Assembly: GCA_002118135.1 (NCBI GenBank)
Contig: BDIU01000082.1
Coordinates: 248,001 to 312,000, forward strand
Direction of reading: 5' to 3'
Origin: Trebouxia sp. TZW2008
Lineage: Eukaryota; Chlorophyta; Trebouxiophyceae; Trebouxiales; Trebouxiaceae
DNA: 64,000 bases
Shown here piece by piece: positions 453 to 64,000 of the stretch. The position numbers and the translations under genes are program-made. Positions within the stretch are counted from its first letter, which is position 1. Every line of letters starts with the position of its first letter. The notes beneath the pieces were generated by a model that was given only the letters and a program-made list of their open reading frames with translations, was not told the origin of the DNA and did not search any database.

Positions 453-3400
453 TTACTGACCTGTGCAAGGCAGCTGCACCACCCATTGTCTATCAGACAT
501 GAGCTGCAACAACTGAGCAAACTGCGGTATAGTCCTAAGGGTGCTTTGCGACCCGACCAAGACCAGCTTCTTTTTTGCTCTGGTGATAGCCACATTCAGT
601 CTTCTCCAATCACGAAGCAGGTTGCCAGCATTGCATTCTGAATTGCTCCGTACCAGAGAAAGCAAAACTACATCCTTGTCCCGACCTTGGCATTTGTCAA
701 CTGTCAAGACCTCCAGATCTGACCAGCTTCTGTCTTTACATATCCTCTGTAGCAACAGTACCTGCGCAACCAATACAACAGCTTCTCAGGTGTATGCATA
801 CCTATCTAGCACTCAGACTAGGGGACAGAGTGTCTGTCATAAGCTGCTACAGCTTGTCTTTGGTGACCAAACAGCCTATACCCTACAAATATCGCAAAGG
901 TAGTGCACACAAGCATGATGTACCCCCACGCTTGTGTGCATCTTGTACCATGACTATGTGCTACAGATATGAACAAGCCAGACAAAATGGCATGCTTTGT
1001 ACAATCTGCACAAGTGGCGACCGGCACTCACTTGTGCGCGGTAAGGTGAGATGATGCCAACGTCCACCAGGGGCAACTGCCCTTCCAACAGAGCCCCCAC
1101 CATGTCTGTGAGCACTGCAGCCTCCCCAGGGTTACTAAGGGCGTCTCCAGATCGCATTTCAGAAGCTGGCATGCTGTCAGTGTCTAGGAACAGAACTCGC
1201 GTGCTTGGTGCTAGGACCTGCAGTAATTGCAACAGTGTCTTTAGAGAGCTTGTCAGAAACAGAAGCCTGGCAGCGCCCTCATTCTGATGACTGAAACAAG
1301 CAAGGCTTGCAGGCAACACAGTGCATTCCCGGCGCTGCACTTCCAGACGGAATTGTGTGCAATAGATTGCCACCCTGAACGACATCTACTGCCAATGCTG
1401 CAGCATTGACCTTGTCAATAACAGTCAAGCAGACAATCCTCATGCATGAGACTTGATTGCTGCCAACTGAAGCTTTGCAGCTCCTGCATCCATGTGGCAA
1501 AGAGCACAAATCACAAATAATGCAGCAACAGCAGAAGTCCACTGTCTTATGTCAAGCAGTAAAGCTGTGCAGGAACAAGCAACTGAGTTTGACATGTATT
1601 GACCTCATACTGGCATGACACATGGAGAACATACTTGCGTGAGCCAGTCAGGCTTGCTGCGCTGGGTTGGAGCCAGTTGCAGGTCCAGCGTTGCATCTGC
1701 CACACTTGCTGCACCACAGTGCAACTGCCCGTCGTACACAATGGTGTTTGCCAGCAGCATGATGTCTGCTGCCATTCTATACTGCGACCTCAGTGTCACC
1801 ACAGTCTGCAGAAACACAGCTTCATCAACAAGATGTATTTGCTGGACTTTGTCACTGCACAGGAATTGAAGACAATAGCACCATTAGCATGCATATTAAT
1901 GCCCACTGAGAGGCATGAAGCAAGGTCTGGCACCTGAGGGCAGCTGTTGACACCATCACTTGTACAGTGAAGCTGTACTTGCATGCTGTGCGCAATCACA
2001 CAGTGATGTCGCACAATTGAGGGTAACCTATGCAGTACAAGCACAGGAGCACTGCTACACTGGCATGTCTGCTCAAGACCATTACAAGTCATTGTTTGTC
2101 CTGCAGGGCCTGACACTGCACTGCAAGCTCAGCTTTGCCCTGCTCTGTTTTGAGGGGCGGTTTTGTGCCTGTAGCTTGGACGCCATATTCAGCCAATGAG
2201 TCAGCAATCTTGGAGTGTTGCTGTATCTGTCAGCTCACATACATCAACAGGTCGCACTGGCAACCACTTTACATACAGCATGCGCCATATACCTGAGGAT
2301 GGGCATCACACAGTCTCTTGAACAGGCTGATGCCCAAACCGCCCTCCTCAGCAGCCCTGGAAGTGACTAATGGGGGCAGCTGATGGTGATCCCCTACCAA
2401 TGTGAACGCCCTGCAGCGGCAGTGACTCAAAACTCAAACTCACACAGTTCTTGCTTTTTGCACAGCTATGGTGTGTGAGTTGGTTTCCTGTGGTACAGTT
2501 ATCAAGCATTGACCAAAAGCTCAGCAAAATCTGAAGATCAGGCAAAAGAGGTGCATAACAGCTATTATACGCATGCCATTGTGTGTGCACTAGCTGCCAA
2601 CAAAGCAGCAAGCATGTGCACATAACATCTGGCGTATCAACAACAGCACTTTTCCTTTCCTGAGACATGTTCTGGCAGTCCTGACAATTGTCAAGGGCTC
2701 AATGATGCCTTCTGTTTGCTTGGCAAGAAGCTCGTTCCACAACACAGGCCATGTGTAGATGGAGCATGGCATGAGCAGGAAGGCCTGTTGATATTCATTT
2801 GATCATGACGCATGCTAGACAGGCCCAGCAGCCCCAGCTAGGTGCGTACTGGAGCAATCAGCTGTCTCCGACCAATTTGGTCCAGTGCTAATCTGAACCA
2901 TCTGTTGCGATGATTGTGGTATACCTGGAGTGCAGGATCGGCCCAAGGGCAACAGGCAAGGTCATCTGACCAGCTTCATCCACGATGCACATGTCAAAGA
3001 CACGGCCCTTCAGCAAGCAGTGATTGACCCCCAGCGCTGTGCATGCCACCTGCAGTGCCACACACAAGCTTTTTTTGACGTGAAATTGATGCCTTCAGAC
3101 ATGTAGCGACACAAGCATGCAAGCTGTTCTTGATGTTGACGCCGCCCAGACCTGCATTACCGCAAGCAAGCAAGCTGTTTGTGCTGCTGCTGCCATGCAG
3201 ATGCAGCAATGCAGCGGCTGAGGCGACTATTTGGTCTCATAGACAATAGCGCCAAAACAATTGCCGGCCATGGTCAGAGGCATCACATGCTTGGCAGAGG
3301 TATGAGTTATCATGCTAACAGCATGCTACAACCCCCGCCCCACCCCCCCTGTGCAAGTTGCTTTCATTTCCTTTGTGTTTGGCAGAGTCTGCAACAGACA

Positions 3401-63100: not shown

Positions 63101-64000
63101 ATGCATGAAATTACCCTTGTAATGTGTAACCCCTTCTTGTCACCATCAGTAGGTGTCTGTGTATTAACTGTGTGTGGTTTTCACGAACAAGCCCAAATTG
63201 GGTCAGTCTTTTGTGAACTCTCCTCGTCACCATCCTGCAACCTCTTCTGGTGACCATCGCTTAGGAGCTCAATGCTGCCTGCTACATGATAGTCATGGAG
63301 GAGTTGACCTGGAATAATCATGACACAATCTTATGACATGCATGGCTGGATGCTAAAGAAGCATCTCAAGAACTCAGAGCAAAAACAGCCAGGCACAAAG
63401 TGCAGAATCAAGAAAAGTGCAGAGAACCGTAATGATACGCATATCGTTGGCACGAAGTTGTGCAAAACTTGTTGAGAAGTTGAGAAGGGCTTGTGCACCA
63501 TAAGAGAAAGTCTGATAATCTGTCATGACATTCAGGACTGGATGCTAGGGCGGCTGCCATTGTCATGCGCTCCGTGAAGAATGTGTCTCGTAATGGGCGT
63601 ACAGTGATGGTGACCATCCACCAGCCCTCCATTGAGATCTTTGAGGGCTTTGATGCTCTGTGCCTGCTTCAAAGAGGCGGCAGGGTGAGCGCTTGTCTTG
63701 CAAGAACATGATTTCTGCTATGAATTGCATGTGCTCATGTCAAGAATGCTGATTTCAAAAGCTTCACTTAGCCAGAAGGCTGATTGCATCATGTGTGCCA
63801 TCCAGCCAGATTGTGACTTCCATTGCCTGCAAGGAAGTCACGATCTGGCTTTGCTTTGTCCCAGAGATCCCTTGAATAACAATGTCACTGTCGTCTCTTC
63901 ACAGTGCATTTACACAATGCACCTTGACAATGTTGTTTCACAATGCAGTTGACCTACTTTGGGATGCTGGGGCATGAGAGTTGCAAGCTGATCCAGTACC
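51174..64000 (+). CDS. full-size ABCG (PDR-type) transporter, 3' partial
   Basis: ATP-driven pleiotropic-drug-resistance exporter with reverse order NBD1-TMD1-NBD2-TMD2; TMD2 lies beyond the window. Start taken at ATG 51174 ([14 protein letters not shown]). NBD1: Walker [15 protein letters not shown] (52082-52357), signature [15 protein letters not shown] (54112-54304), Walker [15 protein letters not shown] (54690-54868), then [17 protein letters not shown]1: exons near 55908, 56413, 56919 ([20 protein letters not shown]), 57452-57618 ([14 protein letters not shown]), 58285-58355, 59035-59220, 59702-59924 ([19 protein letters not shown]) and 60326-60520 ([17 protein letters not shown]). NBD2: DLRYFVDA and Walker [16 protein letters not shown] (61701-61996), [20 protein letters not shown] with VVFMDEPTS (62415-62658), [12 protein letters not shown] (63538-63684) and LTYFGML (63949 onwards). 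The exons between 52801 and 53571 are Lys/Gln-rich and less certain. Plasma membrane is the usual site. Confidence 0.94.
52915..53215 (+). repeat. GCTGCAACCGCTGC-type tandem repeats
   Basis: Degenerate ~60-base units built on TGTTGTGCAACAACCGCTGC and CATGTCATGCCA(C/T)TGTGCAGC in a PDR intron. They produce Cys/Leu- or Ala-rich frames that I treat as non-coding. Confidence 0.75.
54010..54175 (+). repeat. decayed copy upstream of the NBD1 signature exon
   Basis: The intact exon starts GCAG/AATCCAGATGAGGAAAA (54112). A copy with the same acceptor starts at 54016 (AATCCAAATGATCAGAGGG) and encodes [17 protein letters not shown] against [17 protein letters not shown] before ending. Confidence 0.85.
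55220..55485 (+). repeat. copied NBD1 exon end ([11 protein letters not shown])
   Basis: The exon ending near 55301 encodes [14 protein letters not shown]. The same 45 bases reappear at 55438-55482 ([14 protein letters not shown]) followed by GTACCC. A CCTG/TCTG microsatellite (55362-55430) separates the copies. Confidence 0.88.
55362..55565 (+). repeat. CCTG/TCTG/CAGT tetranucleotide repeats
   Basis: Microsatellite tracts of GCCTGCCTGCCTG, TCTGTCTGTCTCTC and AGTCAGCCAGTCAG type within the PDR intron, flanking the copied exon end. Confidence 0.85.
56110..56240 (+). repeat. interspersed repeat copy R7 (PDR intron)
   Basis: CGTTCACTTCACTCCAAGC, then ACTAGACAGGCTCAGCAGGC, CCAGCTAAGTATGTACTGGA, CAATCAACTTTCTCC and a GATGCTGTGCTA end. 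Confidence 0.82.
57300..57965 (+). repeat. copies on both sides of the PDR TMD1 'SLIIGSLF' exon
   Basis: Upstream of the intact exon (57452-57618), the acceptor side is copied near 57305-57360 (GGCTCATCTGGGTGGTCATA). Downstream, the donor side ([14 protein letters not shown] to MNKG) is copied near 57712-57790 and 57885-57966, with a further fragment at 57840. The downstream copies have base changes or single-base insertions that break the frame. Confidence 0.87.
58857..58985 (+). repeat. near-identical decayed copy of the '[17 protein letters not shown]' exon
   Basis: About 125 bases matching the intact exon start at 59035 at well over 90 per cent, including the GCAG acceptor. One missing base (GGTACTCTTCACC against GGTACTTCTTCACC) shifts the frame. 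A young, inactivated copy. Confidence 0.92.
59588..59640 (+). repeat. copy of the '[18 protein letters not shown]' exon start
   Basis: CAGGTGCCCTGAATATGTTGG, continuing to GCCATTGTGCGCGCCTC, repeats the start of the exon at 59702. It encodes [19 protein letters not shown] in frame, so this 5' copy is still open. Confidence 0.87.
60085..60400 (+). repeat. two decayed copies before the '[15 protein letters not shown]' exon
   Basis: Copies at 60085-60150 (still [18 protein letters not shown] in frame) and about 60210-60297 (frame broken, but it holds the later TTLTVA part) precede the intact exon at 60326. All three follow CAG or TAG. Confidence 0.88.
60915..61200 (+). repeat. copies of the '[13 protein letters not shown]' exon start
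   Basis: The intact exon begins near 61137. Copies lie at about 61012-61080 (GAGCTTCAAGAAGAAGACTG) and, weaker, about 60915-60960. Each is preceded by a GTGCAGAG or ATGCAGAA acceptor or a remnant. Confidence 0.8.
62195..62255 (+). repeat. interspersed repeat copy R8 (PDR intron)
   Basis: ATTCATTCATTCATTTATTC, then CATTGGACAGGCTCAGCAGG and CCCAACTAAATATGTGTGG. A short copy with a good simple-repeat edge. Confidence 0.78.
62590..63210 (+). repeat. up to six tandem copies of the NBD2 Walker B exon end
   Basis: The intact exon end ([17 protein letters not shown], to 62658) is followed by copies near 62715 ([17 protein letters not shown]), 62822, 62912 ([17 protein letters not shown]), 63045 ([17 protein letters not shown]) and a faint one near 63150. 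Spacing is about 90-130 bases; each copy carries donor-side sequence. The 62912 copy keeps the Walker B and H-loop-proximal residues in frame. Confidence 0.9.

Follow-up and report, generated by a model that had tools for sequence, protein, structure and literature searches.

The window analysed here is the whole stretch of 64,000 nucleotides (64 kb) from contig BDIU01000082.1 of Trebouxia sp. TZW2008, a green alga from a genus of frequent lichen partners. It carries five genes whose introns hold direct, worn copies of the edges of neighbouring exons, hereafter called echoes, which were probably left by local duplication across splice junctions. The five genes encode a DNA2 helicase/nuclease, a serine acetyltransferase (SAT), an ABC1 atypical kinase, a protein disulfide isomerase (PDI) and a PDR-type ABCG transporter, and they were modelled by splice-aware protein-to-genome alignment with proteins from Trebouxia or a close relative. 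Among the matches listed, the window genes were nearest to Trebouxia proteins, with identities of 79% for the ABC1 kinase (Trebouxia C0005), 74% for SAT (Trebouxia C0010), 68% for the PDR pieces (Trebouxia sp. C0006), 59-61% for DNA2 (Trebouxia C0005 and C0006) and 57% for PDI, both to the close-relative protein and to Trebouxia C0010. The models together contain 67 introns with a mean length of 442 bp and 14,147 exonic bp in 43,786 bp, and no internal stop interrupts the assigned reading frames. The DNA2 exon 10305-11946, where the two protein alignments differ, was merged by hand from a single long open frame, and the SAT model is uncertain at its first exons (upstream of 23452) and its last two exons, since the two aligned proteins differ at both ends.

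The repeat pattern is real and goes beyond chance. A blastn self-comparison of the window (E<=1e-3) returned 64 direct pairs, 52 of them less than 500 bp apart, and 14 inverted pairs, none less than 1 kb apart; five Markov shuffles of the window gave no pair at all. When five other contig pieces (C1, C5, C10, C20 and C40) were added, six pieces with a total of 292.6 kb from a genome assembly of 68.5 Mb in 527 contigs, the near pairs (<1 kb) numbered 160 direct against 2 inverted, distributed (direct/inverted) as 53/0 in the window, 2/0 in C1, 22/0 in C5, 33/0 in C10, 26/0 in C20 and 24/2 in C40. The same near-direct pattern thus recurs in four of the five other pieces, which supports the wide occurrence proposed in the initial annotation; the exception is the 28.6-kb C1, with its 2 pairs, where none of three alignments survived later filtering. 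Furthermore, Waterman-Eggert self-alignment with the self diagonal forbidden yielded 273 alignments at a score of at least 26, including 97 in the window, and none in two window shuffles at a score of at least 22. Unit-length and complexity filters, which also dropped some real pairs (e.g., 7359-7586), left 162 of the 273 for the cluster counts over all pieces, while the five-gene cluster count was made with no complexity filter and with three low-complexity regions excluded. Because blastn under-reports short offsets (a 57-bp array was listed only at offset 114), we think through gapped extension merging into the self diagonal, the apparent lower size limit given by the blastn pairs was dropped.

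Echoes occur in all five modelled genes (Table 1), with a maximum of four per junction (SAT 19633 and PDR 62659). The earlier claim of seven genes stands for these five, and the names MED8 and PSA2 do not: near repeats are present in the regions concerned (24851-25128, 33805-34269, 35089-35470 and 36987-37465), and a Pfam search with 10 window pieces gave one match, to HVA22, confirming neither MED8 nor PSA2 as a gene. The top copy identity had also been put too high, at about 95%, the best exon-echo identity in the window being 0.92 (115/125).

Table 1. Genes, echoes and other near repeats in the window (window positions; offsets and distances in bp)
Feature	Position	Strand	Remarks
DNA2 helicase/nuclease gene	486..15105	-	23 exons modelled; aligned to P0241/P0242, Trebouxia sp. 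C0005/C0006
SAT gene	18111..23452	-	9 exons modelled; aligned to P0131/P0132
ABC1 atypical kinase gene	26837..32586	-	10 exons modelled; aligned to P0121/P0122
PDI gene	38685..45272	-	10 exons modelled; aligned to P0125 of close relative
PDR-type ABCG transporter gene	51174..62659 (gene continues)	+	20 exons modelled; aligned to P0001, Trebouxia sp. C0006
Two acceptor-side echoes of DNA2 exon 3521-3821	3887..4155	-	Offsets 149, 304; AG kept in both
Acceptor-side echo of DNA2 exon 4267-4417	4642..4685	-	Offset 263; 44 columns, identity 0.80
Acceptor-side echo of DNA2 exon 5566-5734	5779..5984	-	Offset 175; exon-echo 111/131, intron-intron 47/70
Donor-side echo downstream of DNA2 exon 6558-6806	6333..6557	-	Offset 219; donor GT kept
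Acceptor-side echo upstream of DNA2 exon 6558-6806	6807..7054	-	Offset 219; acceptor AG kept
Echo of 5' part of DNA2 exon 7295-7429	7519..7586	-	Offset 160; 53/68
Acceptor-side echo of DNA2 exon 12494-12749	12809..12968	-	Offset 176; exon-echo 94/117
Four acceptor-side echoes of SAT exon 18827-19633	19689..20025	-	Junction distances 88, 185, 272, 360
Two acceptor-side echoes of SAT exon 21465-21657	21715..21993	-	Offsets 167, 320
Multi-copy filling of ABC1 kinase intron: acceptor-side echoes of exon 28525-28681 and donor-side echo of exon 29535-29720	28708..29509	-	Offsets 136, 255, 391, 535
Echo of ABC1 kinase exon 30359-30528	30551..30655	-	Begins 3 bp inside exon; 93/105 identical; offset 130; sharp edge
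Donor-side echoes of PDI exon 40791-40924	40390..40766	-	Offsets 160, 325
Acceptor-side echoes of PDI exon 40791-40924	41014..41368	-	Offsets 112, 231
Acceptor-side echo of PDR exon 54110-54304	54003..54059	+	Offset 95
Donor-side echo of PDR exon 55184-55302	55437..55596	+	Offset 178; donor GT kept
Acceptor-side echo of PDR exon 56918-57043	56768..56835	+	Offset 141
Acceptor-side echoes upstream of PDR exon 57452-57616	57287..57451	+	Offsets 71, 141; AG lost in both
Donor-side echoes downstream of PDR exon 57452-57616	57617..57996	+	Donor distances 173, 348; GT kept in both
Acceptor-side echo of PDR exon 59035-59221	58821..58982	+	115/125 exon-echo columns; most similar echo in the five genes
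Acceptor-side echo of PDR exon 59700-59925	59585..59652	+	Offset 112; 54/65
Two acceptor-side echoes of PDR exon 60325-60518	60056..60293	+	Junction distances 113, 239
Two donor-side echoes of PDR exon 60325-60518	60587..60739	+	Donor distances 99, 196; GT kept in both
Two echoes of PDR exon 61137-61273	60914..61087	+	Offsets 130, 232
Four donor-side echoes of PDR exon 62414-62659	62703..63276	+	Distances 108, 216, 304, 440
Intron-internal duplicate in SAT intron	22691..22904	.	No exon; 75/96; offset 118
Intron-internal duplicates in PDI intron	41831..42537	.	No exon; three pairs
Intron-internal duplicate in PDR intron	58384..58761	.	No exon; 82/123; offset 254
Near repeat in region possibly called MED8 by the initial annotation	36987..37465	-	Gene not confirmed; offset 105; 364 columns; identity 0.72; two pieces without Pfam match
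Echoes called as exons by the gene finder (examples)	5804-5911, 12782-12891, 30548-30637, 40463-40510, 60660-60714, 60918-61044 and others

In the five genes, 25 of the 67 introns contain at least 25 bp of near repeat, and near repeats cover 6,889 of 29,639 intronic bp (23%), with 3,096 of these 29,639 bp being copies of exon. Introns with copies had been expected to be longer, and they are, with a median of 586 bp as against 312.5 bp for those without near repeats. The direction rule also held, with 27 of 29 acceptor echoes placed upstream and 9 of 10 donor echoes downstream; it is, however, largely geometric, because whichever copy is continuous with the remaining exon has to be the working one. 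Acceptor-side echoes were commoner than donor-side echoes, with 29 and 10 in the five genes and 90 and 65 junction tests (possibly non-independent) in the six pieces.

Exon labels outside the five genes came from a purpose-built ab initio hidden Markov model (HMM) trained on those genes, which in leave-one-gene-out runs placed 125 of 144 true exon edges correctly among 174 predicted edges. With exons so labelled, we compared the clusters of copies with a simulation in which units were placed at random, wholly exonic units were rejected, exon sites were slowed, intron and echo sites were left free, and the same detector was applied. Exon-overlapping clusters made up 20 of 23 in the five genes, against a simulated share of 0.505 (p 2.9e-4), and 70 of 90 in all pieces, against 0.429 (p 1.5e-11), 3 further wholly exonic clusters being left out; among clusters of at least 0.85 identity in all pieces the count was 14 of 17, against 0.461 (p 0.0025). 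A count of junction-spanning against intron-internal duplications, which had been proposed as a check on the genome as a whole and was made here on six pieces, therefore shows that exon edges carry more copies than geometry and detection bias account for. By a rough hand estimate from simulated detection rates, the rate of duplication per opportunity would be 2.3- to 4.7-fold higher at exon edges.

The most durable alternative holds that duplications fall at random and that those spanning a junction simply stay recognisable for longer, so that geometry and the longer survival of exon similarity produce the pattern. The direction rule, being geometric, counts for this explanation, and so does the simulation itself, in which exon-frozen decay raises the exon-overlapping share from 0.35 to 0.43 in all pieces and from 0.40 to 0.51 in the five genes. 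The observed shares nevertheless exceed the simulated ones, also among the similar clusters, and a doubled loss of intron-internal pairs, which lifts the expectation to 0.60 in all pieces, still leaves p 2.8e-4 there, although only p 0.029 in the five genes (expectation 0.671). We consider it doubtful that geometry and survival are the whole explanation, and our best reading includes a further, unexplained excess at exon edges.

Once formed, the echoes drift at all codon positions. Over non-redundant alignments in the five genes, exon and echo differ at 164 of 1,030 first, 163 of 1,033 second and 270 of 1,035 third codon positions, and this equality of the first two positions together with the higher third is as expected for a free echo beside a silently changing exon. 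In three-copy families, changes confined to the exon fall at positions 1, 2 and 3 in numbers of 32, 17 and 105, while changes confined to an echo number 144, 142 and 177 for one echo and 186, 152 and 195 for the other. The pooled divergence (K), taken over alignments with both kinds of column, is 0.226 between exon and echo against 0.423 between intron and intron, a ratio near the 2:1 predicted for one frozen and one drifting copy, with single pairs ranging from 0.69 to 4.92. Additionally, 28 of 39 echo junctions retain the splice dinucleotide, where local identity predicts 23.9, and there is thus no clear upkeep of echo splice dinucleotides. Most echoes look like dead copies.

The most similar echoes, on the other hand, look partly coding-like, as if they had been coding for part of their lifetime. 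Over 131 echoes from the window and the other pieces, ordered from most to least similar, the ratio of nonsynonymous to synonymous divergence (KN/KS) was 0.19, 0.33, 0.43 and 0.65 (overall 0.41); the first value (0.14-0.26) belongs to the 30 echoes of at least 0.87 identity and the last to the 21 most diverged. Many of the most similar echoes might then serve, now or until recently, as alternative coding segments that later fall silent, a suggestion drawn from sequence comparison with which the sharp conservation edges close to splice sites agree, as does the behaviour of the HMM gene finder, 10 of whose 14 surplus exons inside the homology introns of the five genes were mostly echo. Against this, a frameshift or a stop breaks 11 of the 30 similar echoes, with the same KN/KS (0.20), and polarised changes in echoes show no more than a slight surplus at codon position 3, so that we regard such use as unlikely. 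Gene conversion from exon to echo was considered as a cause of the clock outliers, and by our reasoning it would not explain KN below KS. Whatever their past, echoes are mistaken for exons by an ab initio finder, which constitutes a hazard for annotation.

The flanks of the echoes bear on the template. Compared with the exon's own intron flank, echo flanks gave a mean z score of 4.56, with z>2 in 94 of 155 tests (non-independent), and many copies continue into the intron; compared with the spliced neighbour exon, the mean was 0.19, and 8 of 154 tests reached z>2. For the five genes alone, z>2 was reached in 22 of 44 tests with the intron flank and in 1 of 44 with the spliced neighbour exon. 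On balance, genomic DNA appears to have been copied, because the flanks run on into the intron and only rarely into the spliced neighbour exon. Spliced RNA that was reverse transcribed and re-inserted locally would account for those echoes that stop a few bases from the splice site and for the 5 of 154 tests in which the spliced neighbour reaches z>3, all of them in HMM-labelled pieces, where an echo mistaken for an exon gives the same result; since copies do not on average continue into the spliced neighbour exon, we reject this origin as very improbable. That the echoes are an assembly artefact is hardly credible in spite of the 527 contigs and of Ns in two other contig pieces (not necessarily assembly gaps), given that exon-echo parts differ by 6-45%, where misassembly would give near-identical copies, and that exon-side changes follow codon structure.

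With regard to unit size, the smallest offset per cluster (units of at least 60 bp) has a median of 141 bp and lies below 100 bp in 19, between 100 and 200 bp in 62 and above that in 12 of 93 clusters. In 43 isolated pairs the offset is 147 +/- 44 bp, tighter than permuted sums of length and gap (share 0.004), and aligned length and gap are correlated at -0.40; the offset consequently behaves as the length of a unit. A nucleosome-size unit was also entertained and dropped, unit sizes being broad, about 40-200 bp, after hand correction for detection.

Taken together, the preferred reading is that a DNA segment, mostly of 60 to 200 bases, was likely duplicated where it lay, over the border between an exon and its intron; selection would then have maintained the exon copy, while the other copy drifted as part of the intron. 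Splicing would make such a duplication tolerable, because it can still join the intact exon, which would be the downstream copy at an acceptor and the upstream copy at a donor, giving the direction rule without further cause; each event would lengthen the intron by one unit, and repeated rounds would leave several copies. The duplicating event itself is likely. Its most likely source would be break-and-patch repair acting on staggered nicks that lie about 50-200 bp from each other, with exon edges favoured either as break sites or by survival. We prefer this kind of repair because it yields direct local copies, including imperfect ones with filler. Overall, local duplication across splice junctions, with a worn copy left in the intron and break-and-patch repair as the likeliest source, seems to us a probable account of the echoes.

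Several observations weigh against it. Fresh copies in which the breakpoints of the proposed repair could be read were not found in the six pieces. Half of the five-gene intron-flank tests lack a match, and a flank match of the unaligned gap at z>=3 is limited to 4 of 39 pairs. Among the 8 isolated exon-overlapping pairs of highest similarity, 5 leave 20% or more of the unit unaligned, the simulated share being 4%, or 31% even when introns change at triple rate; a gap of at least 25 bp is present in 6 of these 8 similar pairs, and decay of the intron part could also cause such gaps. Pairs with an unaligned part are either older than their exon identity suggests, as the KN/KS values hint, or were inserted with filler. 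The KN/KS of 0.19 in the most similar echoes is itself below our expectation of about 0.5 for a dead echo, and the five-gene excess at exon edges is weakened by the doubled loss of intron-internal pairs. Moreover, differences between echoes are not fully flat across codon positions 1, 2 and 3 (358/1269, 319/1269 and 415/1263; p 8.8e-5, for echo pairs that share exons and are non-independent), a slight third-position excess that could come from silent exon change between two duplications. Finally, only 1 of 88 clusters (units of at least 60 bp) has a best identity of at least 0.95, and that one is a 59-bp match in a three-copy array, against 11.9% predicted at a steady rate. With very similar copies nearly absent, a steady clock does not fit, and the description of the process as ongoing is not supported; either a past burst or the collapse of near-identical copies in the assembly would account for the shortage.

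Several known systems invite comparison. Tandem genomic duplication is an accepted mechanism of intron gain (PMC3443670), and its AGGT model resembles the present case in that a duplication inside a gene is absorbed by splicing. In that model, however, an exonic unit makes a new intron between two AGGT copies, whereas many of the Trebouxia units run across a junction that was already there and add to the length of its intron. Many of these units are not wholly exonic, as the intron-flank scores show and as many alignments with tens to hundreds of intron-intron columns confirm (the window echoes 7519-7586 and 30551-30655 have no intron columns), and intron length does not equal the offset, 147 +/- 44 bp standing, in a pooled comparison, against a mean intron of 442 bp and a median of 586 bp where echoes are borne.

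Break repair is given as the origin of local duplications in rice, whether tandem, partly tandem or non-tandem, that occur among insertions of 10-1000 bp (Vaughn and Bennetzen 2014, as cited in PMC7407515). These patch-mediated duplications at double-strand breaks are likewise local; they are tandem or partly tandem, with some of the rice sequence derived from within 200 bp of the break, and the copies found here are direct and not inverted locally, as patch repair would leave them; the section of PMC7407515 in question mentions no excess at exon edges, unlike the Trebouxia echoes. Tandem exon duplication and mutually exclusive exons (PMC9013439) share the adjoining copy in the same orientation, but many of the Trebouxia copies comprise only the edge of an exon, and they drift under little coding constraint. 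Introners (PMC9860276) likewise represent a genome-wide process that alters intron content, yet they are families that insert into many genes, whereas window echoes match their own neighbourhood; within the window, where most direct pairs lie close together, the copies do not form one dispersed family, and no genome-wide echo search was made.

Among the open-licence papers listed by literature searches, no title or abstract opening described junction-spanning intron growth at such density, which is weak evidence of novelty, and in the searched text of two Trebouxia genome papers (PMC12712428 and PMC11523091) the word 'intron' occurs 1 and 0 times and 'tandem' 0 times. The statement in the initial annotation that the phenomenon has no standard name is partly right, tandem genomic duplication being already an accepted route of intron gain (PMC3443670). 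The best reading is that junction-spanning duplication in Trebouxia is a variant of known tandem-duplication processes.

Other features of the window may be recorded here. An exon piece on the - strand at 50237-50380 gave the TB2/DP1/HVA22 family match (PF03134, E 1.1e-9). The long N-terminal exon of DNA2 carries coding repeats rich in glutamine and alanine (10876-11525), and low-complexity, triplet-rich repeats at 46837-47342 and 52918-53225 were excluded from the five-gene counts. Furthermore, a dispersed element of about 100 bp, which looks like a short interspersed nuclear element, lies on both strands with several copies intronic (2793-2900, 26367-26441, 31043-31139, 33575-33681, 47839-47946, 49777-49884, 56107-56236 and 62195-62256) and has at least 40 genome matches (the best 40 of 616 candidates).

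Intron length is usually put down to transposons and small indels. In the five genes, local duplication is still readable in almost a quarter of the intron DNA, with nearly all of its clusters overlapping an exon. Each junction provides an internal clock, made up of an exon copy, a free copy and a free intron pair, and rates of duplication, decay and splice-site loss could come from one genome. We put forward, tentatively, the possibility that exon-intron borders of Trebouxia are true hot spots of 50-200 bp duplication, several-fold over intron interiors per opportunity, and that the copies pass through a coding-constrained phase before they decay. If this were true, introns would grow outward from exons and leave a readable, datable record of their growth.

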